Shown here: positions 9,900 through 58,336 of the stretch, piece after piece
Layout: each line of letters begins with the position of its first letter
Position numbering within the stretch: the stretch's first letter is position 1
NCBI RefSeq assembly: GCF_014696385.1
Contig: NZ_JACJQB010000022.1
Span: 1 to 58,336 of the forward strand
Length of the DNA: 58,336 nucleotides
Source of the DNA: Pseudanabaena mucicola FACHB-723
GTDB taxonomy: Bacteria; Cyanobacteriota; Cyanobacteriia; Pseudanabaenales; Pseudanabaenaceae
Reading direction: 5' to 3'
The notes under the pieces: generated by a model
The model's database searches: none
The model's input: the letters and a program-made list of their open reading frames with translations, nothing else
Told to the model about the DNA's origin: nothing
Made by a program: the position numbers and the translations under genes

Positions 9900-9950
9900 C
9901 CATCCGACCGAGACATGTTTTTTTTAGAGGAGTTAACGGAGCTAAGCTTT

Positions 9951-49859: not shown

Positions 49860-50087
49860 ATGGCAATGAACTCCTCTTTTTATCGTAAGCGCCTCTCTCC
49901 GATTGCGCCTGCTGCCAAAATCGACTATAAAGATGTCGAATTACTGCGTAAGTACATCACCGAACGTGGCAAAATTCTTCCCCGTCGCATCACAGGCTTA
50001 ACTGCAAAGCAGCAACGCGCCTTAACAACTGCGATTAAACAAGCTCGCGTTGTTGCCTTGCTTCCTTTCATCAACAAAGAAGGCTAA
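49860..50087 (+). CDS. rpsR: 30S ribosomal protein S18
   Basis: A 75-residue S18, with [19 protein letters not shown] and the basic helix ARVVALLPF. It is the second gene of the rpmG-rpsR pair, followed 8 bases later by a strong palindrome. Confidence 0.98.
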
Positions 50088-50095
50088 ACAATACT

Positions 50096-50130
50096 AAAAA
50101 AGAAAGGACGCGATGCGTCCTTTCTTTTTT
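50096..50130. terminator. 16-bp perfect palindrome, rpsR terminator
   Basis: Arms 50096-50111 and 50115-50130 pair perfectly around GAT closed by ACGC/GCGT, with six A and six T at the ends. Confidence 0.88.
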
Positions 50131-50140
50131 GTTTGTAGAG

Positions 50141-50167
50141 ATAGAGAGACGCAATGCGTCTCTCTAT
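50141..50167. terminator. 12-bp perfect palindrome at the deacetylase gene end
   Basis: ATAGAGAGACGC and its complement pair perfectly around AAT. It contains the stop codon of the minus-strand deacetylase gene (50164-50166). With the previous hairpin it makes a double stop between convergent genes, and both share the core GACGC-NAT-GCGTC. Confidence 0.8.
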
Positions 50168-51141
50168 TTTTTTAGGCATTGCTCAACCACAGCAACCACC
50201 GATTGCGAAAGACTATCAAAGTCATAGCCACCCTCTAGACCAAAAACAATTTTGGGGGTAATTTCTAGGCATAGTTGCGTAAAAGTCCCAAAATCCTCTG
50301 GTTTGAGGAAAATGCTCGCTAAGGGGTCATCGGCATTGGCATCGAAACCTGCACTGACAATTAAAAGATCAGGTTGAAAATCTTGTAAAAAGGGGATGAT
50401 TTGATTGGTGAAGACGGGTAAATATTCCGCAATGGCAGCACCCGATCGCATGGGAATATTCAAAATATTGCGATGTGCGCCTGTTTCATCGGGATGACCT
50501 GTCATTGGGTAAAATGGCGACTGGTGAGTGGATACATAGGCAATATCGTGACGCTCCCACACGGCTTCCTGTGTACCATTGCCGTGATGTACGTCCCAGT
50601 CGAGAATAGCTACGCGATCAAGGTTTTTGCGATCGCAAGCTGACATAGCGGCAATCGCAGCATTGCCAAAAATGCAAAAGCCCATGCCTGTATGGGCGCG
50701 AGCATGGTGTCCGGGGGGACGGGCTAGCACAAAGGCAGGGCGACCAGACTCTAGCACCAGATCGACTCCATCCAGCCATGCACTCACCGCCAAAAGTGCC
50801 ACATCATAGGTATTAACTGAGGCGATGGTATCACCGTCGATATAGCCACCGCCCATCATGGTCATGGCTTGTAAGCTGTCGATATAGGCTTTTGTATGAA
50901 AGCGCTGCACTTCTTGCAAAATATCGATGCCTGACTGCTTACGGCTATGGATATCGGTGGGTTCTTGCCAAATTAATTGCTCTGCGATCGCAGAATTTTT
51001 GAGGGCTTCAACGATTGCAGTTAGGCGACCTGCTTTTTCAGGATGATAAGTACCTGTGTCATGCTCTAAGAAAGCTTCAGAGTAAATAATTGGAAATTTG
51101 TAATTATTTTGGGCTGAAGTAATGGTGGGAGATGAAAACAT
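50164..51141 (-). CDS. Histone-deacetylase-family (class II-like) deacetylase
   Basis: A 325-residue zinc amidohydrolase of the arginase-deacetylase fold. Visible are HDTGTYHPEKAGRLTAIVEAL at the start, ARPPGHHARAHTGMGFCIFG with the His pair, and the metal site DWDVHHGNGTQ. Later come SAGFDANADDPLA with its Asp and GLEGGYDF. Bacterial members act on acetylated polyamines, lysines or small molecules; the substrate here is unknown. Cyanobacteria often have one such gene. It ends in a palindrome. Confidence 0.93.
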   Translation of the reverse strand: MFSSPTITSAQNNYKFPIIYSEAFLEHDTGTYHPEKAGRLTAIVEALKNSAIAEQLIWQEPTDIHSRKQSGIDILQEVQRFHTKAYIDSLQAMTMMGGGYIDGDTIASVNTYDVALLAVSAWLDGVDLVLESGRPAFVLARPPGHHARAHTGMGFCIFGNAAIAAMSACDRKNLDRVAILDWDVHHGNGTQEAVWERHDIAYVSTHQSPFYPMTGHPDETGAHRNILNIPMRSGAAIAEYLPVFTNQIIPFLQDFQPDLLIVSAGFDANADDPLASIFLKPEDFGTFTQLCLEITPKIVFGLEGGYDFDSLSQSVVAVVEQCLKK

Positions 51142-51314
51142 AGTTGTTATAACTTGGAATTGATTAATACTTAAATAAATACTGGGATGAATACTTGCTA
51201 TCCTTGGTATCTACCTAAAGACTAGCGTTATACTTTTAAAATTACAGCTTTGAACTACAGCTTCGACTGCAATCTTTTTGTAGTGCTGCAACAAATTTTA
51301 CTTGGGTCTATCCT

Positions 51315-51968
51315 GTGGTCGATTCTTTACAGTCAAAACAGCCGATTGATACAAAAATGCTAGCCGTCCCCCAAGAACTGGCATCAAAGATCCAAGAGAT
51401 TATCAGTCTCTACGATCAACACAACCAACAAAATATCGCCAATTCTTTAGACAATTTAATTTCTGAGATTAAAAGGGCTGTTAACCATCCTTTCATAAAT
51501 ATTGAAAATACGGAGCAATTGCCTGAAAGCATTACGGATTCAGAAGAAACGGAAATACACGATATTGGGGGGGATAATCAGGCAGATTTTCGGAAGCGGT
51601 GGGATGACATCTTCAATGTGCAGGTTTATATTGACACGGATATTTTTGGAGAGCTAGATCCGCGTCCACCTGCATTAGTGGAACTCGACAGCAGCGCCAA
51701 TGCTGACACCGTTATTCAGCATACGGATGCAACTGCCGCCTATGTCCAAACTTGGAAGGATCTCGCGCAGAGCATATCTTCTTATCCCGATGATTTATTC
51801 ACAAGGCTCTGGACAACTTCGGAAATTGCCAAAATTGTAGAATGTTCGCCCAGTAGTTTGCGACGGGCGCGGAGAACGGGGAGGTTACCAATTAAAGTTA
51901 AAGATTTAGTTCTTGATTGTATTGCCCATGATGGCAAGCGACGGCTTTGGTTTGTGCGTCCCGATTGA
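51315..51968 (+). CDS. Hypothetical protein with C-terminal helix-turn-helix-like region
   Basis: A 217-residue protein starting at GTG 51315. The first half is polar and acidic with a predicted helix (QEIISLYDQHNQQNIANSLD). The C-terminal 60 residues (LWTTSEIAKIVECSPSSLRR, then ARRTGRLP) look like a MerR/excisionase-type HTH followed by a short wing with KRRLWFV. It may bind DNA or be an assembly factor; I cannot name a family. It converges on the TPR-CHAT gene, only 7 bases between stops, with no palindrome there. Confidence 0.7.
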   Translation: MVDSLQSKQPIDTKMLAVPQELASKIQEIISLYDQHNQQNIANSLDNLISEIKRAVNHPFINIENTEQLPESITDSEETEIHDIGGDNQADFRKRWDDIFNVQVYIDTDIFGELDPRPPALVELDSSANADTVIQHTDATAAYVQTWKDLAQSISSYPDDLFTRLWTTSEIAKIVECSPSSLRRARRTGRLPIKVKDLVLDCIAHDGKRRLWFVRPD

Positions 51969-51975
51969 TTTGGGG

Positions 51976-54900
51976 CTACAGTCCATTGCCAATGATAATA
52001 AATGGCGACCAATAGTAAGGATGGCTAAAATCACGATTTTGGGGTGATTTAATCATTGCTCTTTGCGACTTTGCTAGAACTTCAGCCTTAGACAACTGCG
52101 GGTTAGGAAGAATATCATAAAAATTGTCCATTAAAGCCTGCGTGCCGCCATCAGAGACTTTCCAGAGCGATGCGATCGCCGCTTTTGCACCTGCATATTC
52201 CATTTGATAGCCAAAACCCATAATTTCAGTGCCATTGCCAAGTCTGCCGCCAACCCCTGTTTCGCAAGCGCTGAGGATGACCAGATCGACGTTTTGCAGT
52301 GACCATGTGGAGACATCACGGAGGGATACACGACTGCCATCGCCAAACATGACAAAGGAATCTTCGGGTTTACCATTGACAAAGGCGGCATGGGTGGCGA
52401 GATGGATGATGTTGTAATCCTTGAATTTAGAAACTGTAGAACTCGCACTAAAATTGCGATCAATAAATTTGGTCGTCTCAGGTAATTTAGCCACAAGATT
52501 GTTTACTTCTTGCCCCGCAAAGGGTAATCCCGCAAAGTCAAAGGTTTGTCCATTTACCTTAAAAACATATTTGCCAGAGGTAAATGCACCCGCCAGTACA
52601 CGGAGCTGATTATTGCGATCGCGATTGCTTAAATTGGTCAGGCTAGCGGCGGTAATTGTATTAATGGCATAGCGTTCTACGAGCCATTGTTGGCGATCAT
52701 GGAGGGCGGCTATTGGTAAGTAACGCAACTGTCCATCGGGGGCATAGATAATTGTTTGCACATTAGCTTTTTCTAAATCCGCCGCGATCGGCTCAATCAG
52801 CAATGTATAGAGTTGATGAGCTGAGTCTAATATATCGAGGGAACTAGGGTCACGTACATCGATGCGGAAAGTAATAATGGCTCGATTGAGTTCCTCTTTA
52901 GAAATTGCCACAGTGCGACGAATTGGCGCACCTTCAGCAGTAACCAAAATTAGCTCTAGGCGATCATCAAGGACTAGTGGGTAGAGAATTGCAGCTTTTT
53001 GCGATCGCAGTTGCAAATTCTTTTGTAGATCGCTAAATTGCTGGAGATTGACCTGATTGCGATCGCCCGTTTGATTGACTTGGGAAAGAATCGTTGTCAC
53101 CGCAGGACTTTGAATATAGTTGTCGATCTGTTTCGCCGCCCGTTCTTGCACCTCTCGCAATTCCTGTAGACGCTGAATTTGTTGCGGTGTGCGATTTTTC
53201 TGCGTGATTTTGAGGATTTCTAGTTGTTCTTTACCTGATTGAATGGAACGGGATTGAATTGCATTATAATCCGCCAAAAATCTTTGTTCAGCCGCAAGAA
53301 ACTCAATACCCTTAGCTGTTTCGTTATTACCGCGTACATTTTGCAGATAATCGTCTAATTCCTGCACCTTCAGCAAATCCAGTACCTGTTGTGCTTCGAG
53401 AATGCGGTTTTGCTTGAGCAATAGATCAGCCAGATCGCGATAGGTATCAGCAACAGTGCCCGTAAAGGTTTGTTGATCGGCAACAGATAGCGATCGCAAT
53501 TCTTTGCGAATCGATTCGCGCAGATTCACGGATTGCTTATAAAAGAGAATGGCTAACTCTGGTTGCTTCCATCGGGTGAATAAATCTCCCAAACTGCTGA
53601 GATCAATACTTTCACTGCGTCGTTCTCCTAACTGACGATGAATTGTCGCCGCCTGTTGGTAGATATTGAAGGCTTCAGGATAGCGATTGAGATTAGCGTA
53701 GACCGTGCCAAGATTACTCAAAGTTTTCGCTTCAGCCGAAAGATCGCCAATAGCAATCACAATTTCTAAGGCTTTCTGATAGTTTGCCAAAGCCTGTTCA
53801 TACTGTTTTAAAGACCGATAGACTTCACCAATATTGTTGTGGGTGATGCCCTGTGCAGGTAAGTCATTCAGTTCTTGATGAATCATGAGCGCTTGGTTGT
53901 AATAACTGAGGGCTTTTTGAGCATCACGTTTATCATCGTAAACTGAACCAATATTACTCAGAAAAATACTCTCTAGCTGCCGATCACCGAGCTGCCGAAT
54001 CTTAGGCAAAGCTCTGCCATAGAAGTCTAAGGCATTATCTAGTTGACCTAATTCCTTATAGACAGTCGCAATATTGTTGATAGTTGTTGCTTCTTGGCTA
54101 GTCAAATTCAGTTGTTGCGAAATTTCTAGAGAAGCTTTGTAGGCATTTAGAGCTTCTAAATATTTACTCTGACTGCGATAGACACCTGCCATATTATTGA
54201 AAATACTAGTTTCGATGCGACGTTCGCCTGTGGCTCTTACGATCTTTAGTGACTTGCGATAAAAGTCCAAGGCTTTCTCGAACTGTCCCATGCGGCGATA
54301 GGCAAACCCAATATTTAGTAAGACTCCTGCGGTTCCCTTTTGATTGTTATTTGCTTCATAAATAGCTAAAGCCTCTTGTAATCGTTCCAATCCTTGGCTA
54401 AATTGACCAATTTCCACTTGAATATTGCCAATATTATTGAGAATTGTTAATTCTCGTGCCTGATCTGAGATTAAGCGCACTCTTGTAAGGGCTTGCTCAT
54501 AGGTGGTAATTGCCTGTTGCCAATTATTAGCTCGATTGAAGGCAAAGGCAAGATTTTGCAAAATTAGCGCTTCATCAGATCTAACCCGACGATTTTCTTC
54601 AGCATCTTGTAGCTGAATTTCTCGAATAATCTTAAAAGCATTTTGATAGGAAGCAATCGCTAAATCGGTTTTCTGTAAATCTAGATAGACATTGCCAATG
54701 AAGTTGCCAGTTCTCGCCTCCGATAGCCGATCTCCTTCTTGCTGAAAAATTGCGATCGCTTTTTGAAATAATTGCAACCCCTGTTCCTTTTGACCATTCT
54801 GTAACTGTTGTCTTGCCTGAATTACTAGCTCAAAACCTTGTTTTAATGAGGGTTTTCCTTCGGCTAATCGTTCGGGCAGATGCACATTTTGCGTTGTGGC

Positions 54901-54996
54901 ATGGGGCAAAGGGATTGCAACCTTATTTTTTGCCTGAGCTGGGCTAGGTATGGCGATCGCCATGAGGAAAATTGCTAAGACGGAGCGATATAGCAT
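51976..54996 (-). CDS. Secreted TPR-CHAT protein (caspase-like)
   Basis: A 1006-residue protein. The signal peptide LAIFLMAIAIPSPAQA (cleavage near residue 22) is followed by about ten TPR units (residues about 45-510) with repeated N-N-I-G-x-V-Y helices. A coiled linker (about 530-640) leads to the C-terminal CHAT domain. The caspase-type dyad is complete: His869 in HLATHAAF and Cys911 in LSACETGVG. A KxxxxSxRAM end resembles other CHAT proteins. CHAT proteases act in cyanobacterial signalling and in some defence systems; the signal peptide places this one outside the cytoplasm. The target is unknown. Confidence 0.92.
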   Translation of the reverse strand: MLYRSVLAIFLMAIAIPSPAQAKNKVAIPLPHATTQNVHLPERLAEGKPSLKQGFELVIQARQQLQNGQKEQGLQLFQKAIAIFQQEGDRLSEARTGNFIGNVYLDLQKTDLAIASYQNAFKIIREIQLQDAEENRRVRSDEALILQNLAFAFNRANNWQQAITTYEQALTRVRLISDQARELTILNNIGNIQVEIGQFSQGLERLQEALAIYEANNNQKGTAGVLLNIGFAYRRMGQFEKALDFYRKSLKIVRATGERRIETSIFNNMAGVYRSQSKYLEALNAYKASLEISQQLNLTSQEATTINNIATVYKELGQLDNALDFYGRALPKIRQLGDRQLESIFLSNIGSVYDDKRDAQKALSYYNQALMIHQELNDLPAQGITHNNIGEVYRSLKQYEQALANYQKALEIVIAIGDLSAEAKTLSNLGTVYANLNRYPEAFNIYQQAATIHRQLGERRSESIDLSSLGDLFTRWKQPELAILFYKQSVNLRESIRKELRSLSVADQQTFTGTVADTYRDLADLLLKQNRILEAQQVLDLLKVQELDDYLQNVRGNNETAKGIEFLAAEQRFLADYNAIQSRSIQSGKEQLEILKITQKNRTPQQIQRLQELREVQERAAKQIDNYIQSPAVTTILSQVNQTGDRNQVNLQQFSDLQKNLQLRSQKAAILYPLVLDDRLELILVTAEGAPIRRTVAISKEELNRAIITFRIDVRDPSSLDILDSAHQLYTLLIEPIAADLEKANVQTIIYAPDGQLRYLPIAALHDRQQWLVERYAINTITAASLTNLSNRDRNNQLRVLAGAFTSGKYVFKVNGQTFDFAGLPFAGQEVNNLVAKLPETTKFIDRNFSASSTVSKFKDYNIIHLATHAAFVNGKPEDSFVMFGDGSRVSLRDVSTWSLQNVDLVILSACETGVGGRLGNGTEIMGFGYQMEYAGAKAAIASLWKVSDGGTQALMDNFYDILPNPQLSKAEVLAKSQRAMIKSPQNRDFSHPYYWSPFIIIGNGL

Positions 54997-55140
54997 AATT
55001 AGCTTTGGGGAGAAAGTGGATCAAATCAGAAATCGCGTATTTCTAGCTGGTATCCCAAGTAAAATCATAAATATACATTTTGCAGATATCTGCAAAACTT
55101 TGTAAAAGTTCTCACAGCATAGCCTAGGCAGTTTAAACCG

Positions 55141-56247
55141 ATGTATACAGTTTTAGAATCGATTGCGACTGCCAATCCTCCCCATAAGCTTACTCAGTCT
55201 CAAGCAGCAGACTTTATGCTCCACACTGAAAGTCTATCACCTGCGATTAGAAAAAGAATACCTGCAATTTATGCGAACTCAGGCATCGATTATCGCTATA
55301 GCTGCATTCCCGACTATGGCGGAGATTTGCAGAAATTTGAACTATATCCTCAAAATTGGGAACTGACCCCAGCCCCCACCAGCTTTAGGCGCAATCAAAT
55401 ATATACAAAATACGCACCCCAAATTGCCCTGCAAGCTGCCCAACTTGCGATCGCAAAGACAAATCTCAGCGTCAAGGAAATTACGCATTTGGTGGTCGTG
55501 AGTTGTACTGGTTTCACTGCGCCGGGGGTAGATATTCAACTCATTAAGCAACTAGGTTTAGAGCCGACGGTTTCACGGACGATGATCGGCTTTATGGGTT
55601 GCCATGCGGCTTTTAATGGGCTACAAACGGCTCATGCCATTTGTCAAGGCAATCACTGCGCTAAAGTTCTCTTGGTTTGTGTGGAATTATGTTCACTACA
55701 TTTTCAAGTTGCAGACACCCTAGAGAATACAATTATCAATGCTATTTTTTCCGATGGTTCCGCCGCCGCTATCCTGACTGCACAACCATTTTCACAGGCA
55801 GAAGGGAAACTCACTTACACGGCTGGATCAAGTCAGTTGATAGAGAATACAGAGGAAATGATGAACTGGACAATTGGGGATACTGGCTTTTTAATGGGAT
55901 TATCTCCAAAAGTCCCTGATGTAGTCGTAGAGCATGTCCCCAAGTATCTCCAGACCTTCTTAAGTCAATATCATCTTAAGCAGGAAGATCTAGATTTTTG
56001 GGCAATTCATCCAGGGGGAAGAAGAATTATTGAAAAGATTCAAACCGCTTGTGAGCTTAGCGATGCTATGGTCTCTGATTCCTATGAAGTTTTGCGCCGC
56101 TATGGGAATATGAGTTCACCAACAGTTCTCTTTATCCTCAAACAGATTCTTGAAAATCAGGCAACCAATCCTGCATTACATCATGGAATTGCCCTAGCAT
56201 TTGGACCAGGACTATCGATTGAAGGTTGTCTATTCCAAACAGTGTAA
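55141..56247 (+). CDS. Type III polyketide synthase (chalcone/stilbene synthase family)
   Basis: A 368-residue homodimeric ketosynthase that extends an acyl-CoA with malonyl-CoA. The Cys-His-Asn triad is intact: Cys154 (FMGCHAAFNG), His290 (WAIHPGG) and Asn323 (YGNMSSP). Other marks are VVVSCTGFTAPGVD and LAFGPGLSIEG. The product (alkylresorcinol, pyrone, phloroglucinol or similar) cannot be predicted safely. A methyltransferase gene follows after 75 bases, so a methylated product is likely. The FAD oxidoreductase gene that often completes such clusters is missing. Confidence 0.94.
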   Translation: MYTVLESIATANPPHKLTQSQAADFMLHTESLSPAIRKRIPAIYANSGIDYRYSCIPDYGGDLQKFELYPQNWELTPAPTSFRRNQIYTKYAPQIALQAAQLAIAKTNLSVKEITHLVVVSCTGFTAPGVDIQLIKQLGLEPTVSRTMIGFMGCHAAFNGLQTAHAICQGNHCAKVLLVCVELCSLHFQVADTLENTIINAIFSDGSAAAILTAQPFSQAEGKLTYTAGSSQLIENTEEMMNWTIGDTGFLMGLSPKVPDVVVEHVPKYLQTFLSQYHLKQEDLDFWAIHPGGRRIIEKIQTACELSDAMVSDSYEVLRRYGNMSSPTVLFILKQILENQATNPALHHGIALAFGPGLSIEGCLFQTV

Positions 56248-56322
56248 GTATTCTCAATCTTTTGTTGCACGCTATCTGATTTCCAAAAAGTTTAATTAGG
56301 AAAAGTTTAATTAGGAATATAT

Positions 56323-57057
56323 ATGCCTTCATTTCAAATTCGTACCGATCAAGATGAGTTGATGGATGATTTCTCAATTCAGGATGAACGCCTTACCGAT
56401 GCCCTTGAGCAACTGCGTCCGATCAATCAACTGCTCGGTGGTTATGCCACCACAATGGAGGTGCTTGCTCCTTTTTTGCGATCGCAAGCCCACACTCAAC
56501 AGCCAATCCGCATTCTTGATTTAGGGACAGGTATTGGTGATTTTCCTGAATATATTGTGCGGTGGGCAGCAGCTCAATCACCGCCGATCAATGTCGAAAT
56601 TGTGGCAATCGATGCCAATCCTGTCACCGTAGACTATGCCCGTCAAGCCTTGCAAAAACGATTGCCCGCAGAGTTTTATCGCAAAATCAAAGTCGAGGTT
56701 GCTGATGCCTTGGCACTTCCCTATGCCGACGATCAGTTTGATATTGCGATCGCAGCCATGTTTTTGCATCACTTTGCCCATGACAACGCAGTCCAAATTT
56801 TGCGATCGATGCAGCGTGTCTCCAAACAGGGAATTGTGGTGAATGACCTCCATCGTCATCCTCTCGCCTATTACGGCATCTATGCTCTGACCCGACTATT
56901 ACCTGCTGCCCCGATGGTACGCAATGATGCGCCACTCTCAGTTTTGCGTGGTTTCAAATCACCTGAATTGCAAAGTATTGCTACCGCCGCAGGTTTAACC
57001 AAGTTTTCGCTAAAGTGGCGCTATGCCTTTCGCTGGGTTTTACATAGCATTGTCTAA
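56323..57057 (+). CDS. SAM-dependent methyltransferase of the PKS cluster
   Basis: A 244-residue class I enzyme. Motif I is ILDLGTGIGDFPEYI (about 64-78), then an IDANPV acidic strand and DALALPYADDQFDIAIAAMF. A VVNDLHRHPLAYY segment follows, with His residues often seen in UbiE/phenol methyltransferases. It is located directly after the type III PKS and is probably co-transcribed, so it likely methylates the polyketide. O- or C-methylation is not clear. The gene ends 12 bases before a palindrome. Confidence 0.88.
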   Translation: MPSFQIRTDQDELMDDFSIQDERLTDALEQLRPINQLLGGYATTMEVLAPFLRSQAHTQQPIRILDLGTGIGDFPEYIVRWAAAQSPPINVEIVAIDANPVTVDYARQALQKRLPAEFYRKIKVEVADALALPYADDQFDIAIAAMFLHHFAHDNAVQILRSMQRVSKQGIVVNDLHRHPLAYYGIYALTRLLPAAPMVRNDAPLSVLRGFKSPELQSIATAAGLTKFSLKWRYAFRWVLHSIV

Positions 57058-57068
57058 CCTCTTGATTG

Positions 57069-57105
57069 TTGATGAAGCGCAACGCGGAGCGTTGCACTTC
57101 ATCAA
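57069..57105. terminator. 17-bp palindrome after the PKS cluster
   Basis: Arms 57069-57085 and 57089-57105 pair with one mismatch around GGA closed by GCAACGC/GCGTTGC. It ends the methyltransferase transcript and shows that the next gene does not begin upstream of about 57110. Confidence 0.75.
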
Positions 57106-57146
57106 TTGTTGTAAACTATGATGTATTTGAATTTAGGGTAAATATC

Positions 57147-58001
57147 GTGTCACAACGTACAGCAAGACAATGGATTATTAACGGTGTCTTGATCGTAGTT
57201 ACGCTCTCATTTTTGGGCGTATCAATTGCACCACTAATTGGCGGACTCTTCGCACCACCAACGCAACAACCAGCTAATAATTCTGCTCAAAATGCTTCAG
57301 AACAAGAACGTATCAAGATTCAAATCGAAGGTTTTGAGGCTGTACTAAAAAGCGATCCTAAAAATCAAACTGCATTAATTGGTCTAGTTAATCTCAGAAA
57401 CCAATTAGGAAATGTCAAAGAAACAATCGAGCCACTACAAACCCTCGCTGATACTTTCCCCGATCAGCCTGAATATCGGATGACCTTGGCACGTACCTAT
57501 ATTGAACTGAAAGATCCCCAAAATGCCTCGGCAGAATATCGCAAGATTCTGACCACCAAACCCGGTTTTCTTCCTGCCATTCAGAGCTTGGTTAGTATTG
57601 AGTTAACCGACAAACGACCTGAAGCGGCGATCGGGCTTTTGCAAGATACCCTCAAAACTGCGGAAACTGCTAATAAAATCCAAGCCGATAGCGTTGACAC
57701 CAACTCAGTACGTTGGATTCTCGGTGAAGTCTATCGTCAACAAAATCGTATTGACGACTCGATCGCCACCTATGACCAAATGATCAAAGACAACGCCAAG
57801 GATTTTCGTCCCTACGTTGGTAAAGCCCAACTAAGACAGATTCAAGGCAAAGATGATGAGGCAAAGAAACTATTTGATAAAGCCTTAGAGCTTGCTCCTG
57901 CTGAGTTTAAGGATGAAGTAAAGCGTCTATCGGCACTCTCACCTAAAGCCCAACCATTTGTTGATCCTGCTAAGCCACCTAGTGCCGCTCCGCAGCAATA
58001 A
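57147..58001 (+). CDS. Membrane-anchored TPR protein
   Basis: About 284 residues. I chose GTG 57147, preceded by AGGG, since the longer frame from 57066 would run through the terminator palindrome. A hydrophobic helix (about 12-34) anchors the protein, then an Ala/Gln-rich linker and about four TPR units (for example EPLQTLADTFPDQPEYRMTL, DSIATYDQMIKDNAKDFRPY). Such Ycf37- or CcmH-like TPR proteins assist assembly of thylakoid or envelope complexes, but the target is unknown. The protein ends in a Pro/Ala-rich tail, and a long palindrome follows. Confidence 0.8.
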   Translation: MSQRTARQWIINGVLIVVTLSFLGVSIAPLIGGLFAPPTQQPANNSAQNASEQERIKIQIEGFEAVLKSDPKNQTALIGLVNLRNQLGNVKETIEPLQTLADTFPDQPEYRMTLARTYIELKDPQNASAEYRKILTTKPGFLPAIQSLVSIELTDKRPEAAIGLLQDTLKTAETANKIQADSVDTNSVRWILGEVYRQQNRIDDSIATYDQMIKDNAKDFRPYVGKAQLRQIQGKDDEAKKLFDKALELAPAEFKDEVKRLSALSPKAQPFVDPAKPPSAAPQQ

Positions 58002-58014
58002 ACATCGCTTTTTT

Positions 58015-58065
58015 AAAACAGAGAATGAGTTGCGGTGCTTCGCGTCGCAACTCATTCTCTGTTTT
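58015..58065. terminator. 24-bp palindrome between the TPR gene and the insertion sequence
   Basis: Arms 58015-58038 and 58042-58065 pair with two G-T wobbles around TTC closed by GTGC/GCGT. The ends are AAAAC and GTTTT. It serves the TPR gene and possibly the converging transposase gene. Confidence 0.85.
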
Positions 58066-58084
58066 TTGGGGTTATAAACTGATG

Positions 58085-58336
58085 TTACGTGGAAGGAATA
58101 GCCAATTTTTGGAGAAGAGAGAAACTAGCCCTAAGGGCATTGAAGTAGAGTTTAGACTTGAGAGCAAAGTGATTGAGTTTAGTTTTAATCCGAAGGCGCT
58201 CTAGCTTAACAAAAGCAAAAAAGCAAGCAAAGATGTGATTTTTCTGAGTATGAGGAATCCCAGTGGGCGACTTAGCAAGAGCCAGATTAGATTTCAAAGA
58301 CTTGTGAAACTCTTCAACTTTCCATCGTTTTTGATA
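58085..58336 (-). CDS. IS4-type transposase, C-terminal part (cut by window edge)
   Basis: The last 83 residues of a DDE transposase on the minus strand; the frame runs open past 58336. The segment YQKRWKVEEFHKSLK at the window edge fits the Y-(2)-R-(3)-E-(6)-K signature of IS4-family enzymes, with the catalytic Glu included. Then KSPTGIPHTQKNHIFACFFA is followed by basic helices and stop TAA at 58085-58087. The rest of the element, its ends and possible target repeats lie outside. It may be intact or a fragment. Confidence 0.8.
   Translation of the reverse strand, partial: YQKRWKVEEFHKSLKSNLALAKSPTGIPHTQKNHIFACFFAFVKLERLRIKTKLNHFALKSKLYFNALRASFSLLQKLAIPST

Follow-up and report, generated by a model that had tools for sequence, protein, structure and literature searches.

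A type III polyketide synthase and methyltransferase gene pair in Pseudanabaena as a probable part of a dispersed three-gene phenolic-lipid pathway

The gene clusters that come closest to the locus analysed here combine a type III polyketide synthase (PKS), a methyltransferase (MT) and an oxidoreductase. The hidABC genes of hierridin-like clusters (Cyanobium sp. LEGE 06113), as far as they are described in the portions used of the two sources (PMC8086630, PMC10896814), encode the same three enzyme types as those found in Pseudanabaena, and one of the two reported orders, hidC>hidA>hidB, is also seen in the linked Pseudanabaena loci. The pkqABC genes (Mycobacterium smegmatis, Streptomyces sp. 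MNU77), the product of which is given as a quinone, share with the Pseudanabaena genes the PKS-MT-oxidoreductase order and a Trp at the ArsB-281 position; however, they are actinobacterial whereas the present genes are cyanobacterial, and they are likened here by description and not as orthologues (PMC9927152, in its relevant sections). A planctomycete MT-oxidoreductase-PKS operon carries the same three functions in another gene order, and the passages of that report that deal with it state that PKSs of this operon type yielded C15/C17 (pentadecyl- and heptadecyl-) resorcinols in C. glutamicum, and that methylated forms appeared once MT and oxidoreductase accompanied the PKS of Gimesia maris (PMC10896814). 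In Pseudanabaena galeata CCNP1313, a type III PKS (OA858_10790; 2,381,211-2,382,323) was called standalone in the section on this gene, its product being left unpredicted (PMC11356792). The main text of PMC8086630 does not contain the string "Pseudanaba", and no report on a dispersed version of these genes in Pseudanabaena was found among the open-licence papers searched.

Residues related to the mode of ring closure have been described for some of these enzymes. In the excerpts available for ArsB and ArsC, Trp281 of ArsB is reported to direct resorcinol formation and Gly284 of ArsC, with Met293 nearby, pyrone formation, a rule that rests on mutants of one enzyme pair (PMC6274091). The ArsB-281 residue was also used for PkqA and a Streptomyces enzyme, according to the corresponding part of PMC9927152, and the position of CHS Phe265 is reported in the part cited of PMC8086630 to be occupied by Met in HidC and by Cys in the PKS18 clade.

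The stretch of DNA analysed here (the window, 58,336 nucleotides) is an entire contig, C15, of a Pseudanabaena genome of 3.96 Mb in 94 contigs. It encodes a type III PKS with a putative HidC/PkqA-like role (55141..56247, plus strand, 368 aa) and a class I SAM-dependent MT with a putative HidA-like role (56323..57057, plus strand, 244 aa, motif LDLGTGIGD). Both open reading frames are intact and lie on the same strand, and the coordinates bear out the 75-base gap (56248-56322) given in the initial annotation, which contains a tandem pair of a 15-base repeat (56286..56315, without strand). The full Cys-His-Asn triad that had been ascribed to the synthase was also confirmed, since Cys154, His290 and Asn323 align with Cys175, His313 and Asn346 of PKS18. 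Together with this triad, two Chal_sti_synt domains (Pfam Chal_sti_synt_N/C at 107 and 87 bits, cut-off 27) place the protein in the chalcone/stilbene synthase superfamily as a type III PKS. FabH or another non-polyketide thiolase was discarded as an identity for this protein, given that the Chal_sti_synt domains score above their cut-off and the FabH models far under theirs, and the only other PKS match in the genome is a FabH-like protein of 25% identity; grouping with proteins that do not make polyketides was thus not observed. The glycopeptide synthase DpgA was likewise rejected (183.8 bits versus an NCBIfam cut-off of 425). For the MT, Pfam Methyltransf_25/11 matched above cut-off and the nearest NCBIfam model, PRK06202 (NF004851), remained under it (144.8 of 243 bits); the AlphaFold model is of low confidence (pLDDT 52.7) and no second MT copy was detected in this genome at E 1e-3. 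Pfam, PDB and NCBIfam comparisons are concordant on the families of both proteins.

The FAD oxidoreductase that is common in related clusters had been reported as absent, which holds for the window and fails for the genome, as a close homologue lies on contig C13 (G000:C13:21362-22483). This gene is an open frame whose product is 80% identical to the FAD protein of Pseudanabaena sp. FACHB-1998, in which the FAD gene stands directly beside PKS-MT (L017; MT stop at 9943-9945, FAD start at 9938, overlapping, or at 9950). A search with the FACHB-1998 protein retrieved this single close match from the window's genome, the next being 30% identical over part of the protein. The view of the pair as a two-gene cluster is therefore not sustained, as the third gene is present in the same genome and largely accompanies PKS and MT across genomes. 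Judging from sequence and from analogy with the systems mentioned above, the pair probably represents two of the three genes of a dispersed pathway, of the type known for hierridin (hidABC) and polyketide quinones (pkqABC), that would lead from an alkylresorcinol to a methylated alkyl-hydroquinone. The kind of enzyme is known, and the best reading is that the pathway would belong to the known three-gene phenolic-lipid type, with its genes separated yet retained nearly genus-wide.

The genus was surveyed in 26 Pseudanabaena genomes including the window's own, and hits on FabH-like proteins or on other FAD proteins were excluded from the counts. The PKS is present in 24 of the 26 (in 23 of the 25 other genomes, at 66-81% identity), and the remaining two, G014 and G022, match through a FabH-like protein alone. 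An MT match was obtained in 24 genomes, in 22 of them at full length; in G024 (a 76%-complete genome) it consists of two overlapping frames near a contig end and in G022 of residues 147-244 alone, while no match was found in G014 nor in G021 (82% complete). The FAD gene occurs in 25 of the 26 genomes with at least 74% identity, G014 having a 29% partial match alone, of a sort that most genus genomes also have. Among the 22 genomes with the three genes at full length, six are linked, with FAD at no more than 2.2 kb from MT (G004, G007, G011, G015, G017, G025), twelve keep PKS and MT adjacent with FAD elsewhere, three have all the genes apart (G002, G009, G013) and one was left unjudged because of contig ends (G006). 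Linkage labels were assigned by hand from coordinates, and in draft genomes "apart" rests on gene context; it is certain in G002, where the three genes are found at 0.05, 0.47 and 2.11 Mb of one scaffold, and in G005, where PKS-MT and FAD are at 2.38 and 4.48 Mb of a long replicon. Based on coordinates, G005 appears to be P. galeata CCNP1313 and its PKS (G005:C1:2381211-2382320) the OA858_10790 orthologue; whereas the gene is treated as standalone in the pertinent section of PMC11356792, an MT gene is seen here 200 bases downstream of it, and an FAD gene 2.1 Mb away. In several linked genomes small genes occur between MT and FAD (L074 7046-8059, also L077 and L079), one of them with a RelB-antitoxin match under cut-off.

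Values of dN/dS were 0.03-0.11 for PKS and 0.02-0.21 for MT (12 pairs with a value, 14 tried), and 0.04-0.11 for FAD (14 pairs), dS being saturated in some pairs. The three genes are thus under purifying selection, whether linked or apart, and the presence of the PKS in 23 of the 25 other genomes together with the low dN/dS shows that the pair is more than a chance finding.

The surroundings of the FAD gene are informative on how the genes came to be separated. In five of the six linked genomes (G017 being the exception) and in G022, FAD is followed by a convergent MFS transporter gene and by genes for a pentapeptide protein, TerC and GcvH, and the same block follows FAD in ten of the twelve FAD-apart genomes, including the window's own (L022), which indicates that in these ten FAD kept its downstream neighbours and PKS-MT is located elsewhere. 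The two FAD-apart exceptions are G001, where the contig ends, and G003; the block after FAD was missing in G003, in G017 and in the all-apart genomes G002, G009 and G013. When apart, PKS-MT lies downstream of an NAD-synthase gene in G012, G016, G019, G020 and G024 (the last one unscored) and beside a CHAT-TPR gene in the window. Linkage was mapped on a tree computed from the three joined proteins (28 rows, of which 25 were scored), a gene tree and not an independent species tree. Contig ends or low genome completeness left G006, G021 and G024 unscored, G022 was entered as linked despite having no PKS, and G014, which has none of the genes, is not among the rows. On this tree linked and apart states require four changes (bootstrap range 3-4; well supported branches force at least two), and the all-apart genomes form one clade (100/99). 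The three outgroup genomes, two of them on long branches, are contiguous, suggesting that contiguity of the three genes may be the older state.

Two genomes of the genus have lost all or part of the set. G014 is devoid of PKS, MT and FAD, with the MFS-pentapeptide-TerC-GcvH block intact and an aspartate/ornithine carbamoyltransferase gene at the place occupied by FAD in its relatives. Its TerC is closest (96-98%) to those of G012, G016, G018, G019 and G020, all of which have PKS-MT and FAD apart, so that PKS-MT and FAD likely disappeared from G014 by two separate losses. Loss is partial in G022, which has no PKS, retains an MT remnant and still has a conserved FAD gene (dN/dS 0.05-0.06) on a short branch, for which reason the loss of the PKS would seem recent.

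Beyond the genus, a phylum survey of 386 genomes (cut-offs E 1e-25 for PKS, 1e-12 for MT and FAD) detected PKS in 37, MT in 33, FAD in 30 and all three in 24 genomes, with overlaps of 31 for PKS-MT and 26 for PKS-FAD; the co-occurrence of PKS and MT has a Fisher p of 2e-37, uncorrected for relatedness. Seven genomes have PKS and MT with no FAD match at the cut-off, and all seven show a weaker FAD match (40-59 bits) directly before the PKS. Incomplete sets comprise MT without PKS (G022, G041), FAD without PKS (G022, G044, G178, G325), PKS and FAD without MT (G046, G060) and PKS alone (G026, G114, G231, G292). In two genomes, G054 (C38, C21) and G057 (C93, C339), the PKS adjoins FAD, the MT match lies on a separate contig and Phe replaces Trp243 (see below), which is possibly another dispersed or variant form.

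Contiguous PKS-MT-FAD loci are found outside the genus in six genomes (G313, G039, G407, G029, G035, G043), the first three with identities of 48-58% (PKS), 62-68% (MT) and 54-59% (FAD). In each of three quick gene trees, which include eight Pseudanabaena genomes and contain several long branches, these eight rows form one set with G313, G039 and G407 (SH-aLRT 89, 99, 99). Family f20, taken to be picocyanobacteria, has the order MT-FAD-PKS in the 11 loci whose neighbourhoods were read, and its PKS group and that of the window form separate branches, both apart from PKS18, in a quick tree with long branches. An f20 genome, G407, carries a Pseudanabaena-like PKS-MT-FAD cluster (L056, G407:C1:166820-169865; 48/62/54% identity), unlike the MT-FAD-PKS of the 11 family loci, which suggests acquisition by horizontal transfer. 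On plasmids, 158 records match the PKS; in the four loci read, from the best 15 of the 158, the three genes are together, in orders and orientations that differ (Deinococcus radiodurans, Psychrobacter, Paludisphaera and Methylobacterium). The D. radiodurans plasmid locus (L108, 3989-6948) comprises overlapping genes for a PKS with the Trp/Met residues, an MT and an FAD-dependent oxidoreductase, followed by a glycosyltransferase; its annotated FAD gene gave no match to the Pseudanabaena FAD query at E 1e-3.

This distribution bears on the possibility that the pair acts alone, PKS and MT making a methylated alkylresorcinol while the distant FAD protein has some other job. In its favour, the FAD gene is unlinked in the window's genome and persists without PKS in G022, and a two-gene operon that lacks the oxidoreductase exists in the planctomycete Stieleria maiorica, whose PKS makes alkylresorcinols, as stated in the passage of PMC10896814 concerned. 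Nevertheless, FAD is near PKS-MT in six genomes of the genus and six outside it, the three gene trees are congruent at the level of groups, FAD is missing together with PKS and MT in G014, and the loss in G022 looks recent, as judged from its short FAD branch and low dN/dS. An independent function of the pair is consequently unlikely, although it is the alternative that fares best, and a dispersed three-gene pathway remains the preferred reading.

With regard to the product, the initial annotation had proposed a methylated phenolic or pyrone. The sequences lend good support to a methylated aromatic polyketide, and the residues that align with the cyclisation-specificity positions narrow the choice. 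Trp243 and Met252 of the window PKS stand in the columns of Leu266 and Cys275 of PKS18, so that the Leu/Cys pattern of this pyrone synthase is not present. Met252 corresponds to the CHS Phe265 position through the Cys275 column of PKS18, and Trp243 to the ArsB-281 position, a column fixed by its distance of nine residues from Met252, which equals that between ArsC Gly284 and Met293 in the account consulted. Trp243 and Met252 occur together in the 24 PKS-bearing Pseudanabaena genomes, and Trp is found at position 243 in the six other cyanobacterial PKS-MT-FAD loci, in the 20 f20 rows aligned (11 neighbourhoods read) and in five of five planctomycete or plasmid-borne operons. The f20 genomes with a PKS are 22, of which G407 (Trp) and G292 (Leu, with neither MT nor FAD as neighbour) were counted apart from the 20 rows. 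Leu also occupies position 243 in L069, L070 and L071, where the surroundings of the PKS contain neither an MT nor an FAD match. The Trp/Met pair is not universal, because Phe is found at position 243 in G046, G054 and G057, each with an FAD neighbour, and Ile replaces Met252 in the Psychrobacter PKS; the PKSs of G026 and G060 lie outside this comparison. As Trp243/Met252 fit ArsB and HidC and not the Leu/Cys of PKS18, a phenolic product of the resorcinol type is the best reading.

Alkyl-pyrones are methylated by a partner MT in the Bacillus bpsA/bpsB system, and an equivalent scheme, in which the PKS would make long-chain alkyl-pyrones for the MT to methylate, has some points in its favour, as the pyrone synthase PKS18 is the second-best relative of solved structure and Cys184 aligns with its acyl-tunnel Cys205. 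It is disfavoured by Trp243/Met252 instead of Leu266/Cys275 and by the two cyanobacterial relatives that do have Leu/Cys (L069, L070), in which neither MT nor FAD was matched in the vicinity of the PKS, and is regarded as distinctly improbable.

The FAD protein itself was compared with known families, its AlphaFold model being of low confidence (pLDDT 39.1). Flavin-dependent halogenases carry the motif WxWxIP. Such halogenases head the PDB sequence matches of the FAD protein, yet it is very improbable that the protein is one and yields hierridin C-like chlorinated compounds, as this motif was missing in all 42 FAD sequences tested and the best NCBIfam models, both under cut-off, are the geranylgeranyl-reductase family and the monooxygenase QhpG.

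Under the preferred dispersed pathway, the chemical steps can be proposed by analogy. A long-chain fatty acyl group would be loaded on Cys154 of the PKS and extended with three malonyl units to a tetraketide, which, considering Trp243/Met252 and the characterised enzymes of the operon type, may be closed by C2-C7 aldol condensation to a 5-alkylresorcinol. The MT would then methylate this product, probably on oxygen and less likely on carbon, and the FAD enzyme encoded on contig C13 may hydroxylate the ring, as suggested by HidB and PkqC, to give a methylated alkyl-hydroquinone that could be oxidised to the quinone. As in hierridin-like clusters, the synthase has an MT neighbour; unlike them, a clustered oxidoreductase is not found here, and only 6 of 22 genus genomes have it clustered. 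Relative to the f20 genomes, which show the hidABC order, identity is low for MT (about 28-35%) and FAD (22-34%) and the PKS is on another branch; HidA, HidB and HidC are likened here by description. The same ranges cover the planctomycete counterparts, with the locus L018 (MT-FAD-PKS, Trp/Met) being 40/28/24% identical in PKS, MT and FAD, and given these low MT and FAD identities the chemistry may not be that of either group, in the atom methylated (O or C) as well as in the site of hydroxylation.

A reading based on gene neighbourhood leads to a two-gene cluster or a "standalone" synthase, and one step of the pathway would be missed. The genus offers a natural series that runs from genomes with contiguous genes, through those in which FAD or all three genes stand apart, to partial deletion and complete loss of the set. 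Since the pathway was mostly retained after the loss of clustering across this series, the tie between clustering and function becomes testable, and a role near core physiology rather than that of an occasional secondary metabolite is suggested. A more speculative and rather doubtful extension is that in Pseudanabaena a polyketide quinone made by the pathway supplements plastoquinone as an additional electron carrier of the membrane, for example under low oxygen or in darkness; if true, such a quasi-housekeeping role would explain the near genus-wide retention after the cluster fell apart.

Some features of the flanking DNA deserve mention. The terminator that had been placed after the MT gene was substantiated in part: there is a strong hairpin at 57069..57105 (plus strand; 17-base arms, 94% complementary, 3-base loop; folding z -4.8), but it has no T-run and was not called by the terminator scan, so it is not a canonical intrinsic terminator. 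The scan found 4 terminator-like sites versus a mean of 3.7 in shuffles, and a T-tailed hairpin is present on the same strand at 58018-58062, past the next gene (a TPR protein). The hairpin at 57069-57105 was also dismissed as a repeat family, with one copy in the window and its core in 3 of 117 loci, all at this very place; no RNA family reached the gathering threshold within 50000-58336.

Upstream of the PKS, a perfect 20-base palindrome (55078..55097, without strand; TTTTGCAGATATCTGCAAAA) ends 43 bases from the start of the gene. A common operator for PKS and FAD was considered and rejected, as the 18-base core is present as a single exact copy genome-wide, no version of the palindrome with up to 6 substitutions turned up in the 250-base upstream regions of 18 relatives' PKS genes, the L007 region being partly N, and the corresponding 250 bases in front of the FAD gene contain no palindrome of at least 12 bases. 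By eye, a stretch resembling GGCAGTTTAA immediately 5' of the PKS (window 55120-55142; L003-L017, L077-L079) is common to several Pseudanabaena loci, the remaining upstream region being different. At the end of the contig an open frame (58085-58336) runs off the sequence; it gives the impression of a transposase end and has no Pfam match. Finally, the gene for the CHAT-TPR protein (64-71% identical; window 51976-54996, L012 4667-7606, L017 11173-14202) adjoins the PKS here and in G002 and FAD in G017, and its position beside one or the other is possibly a remnant of an older common neighbourhood.
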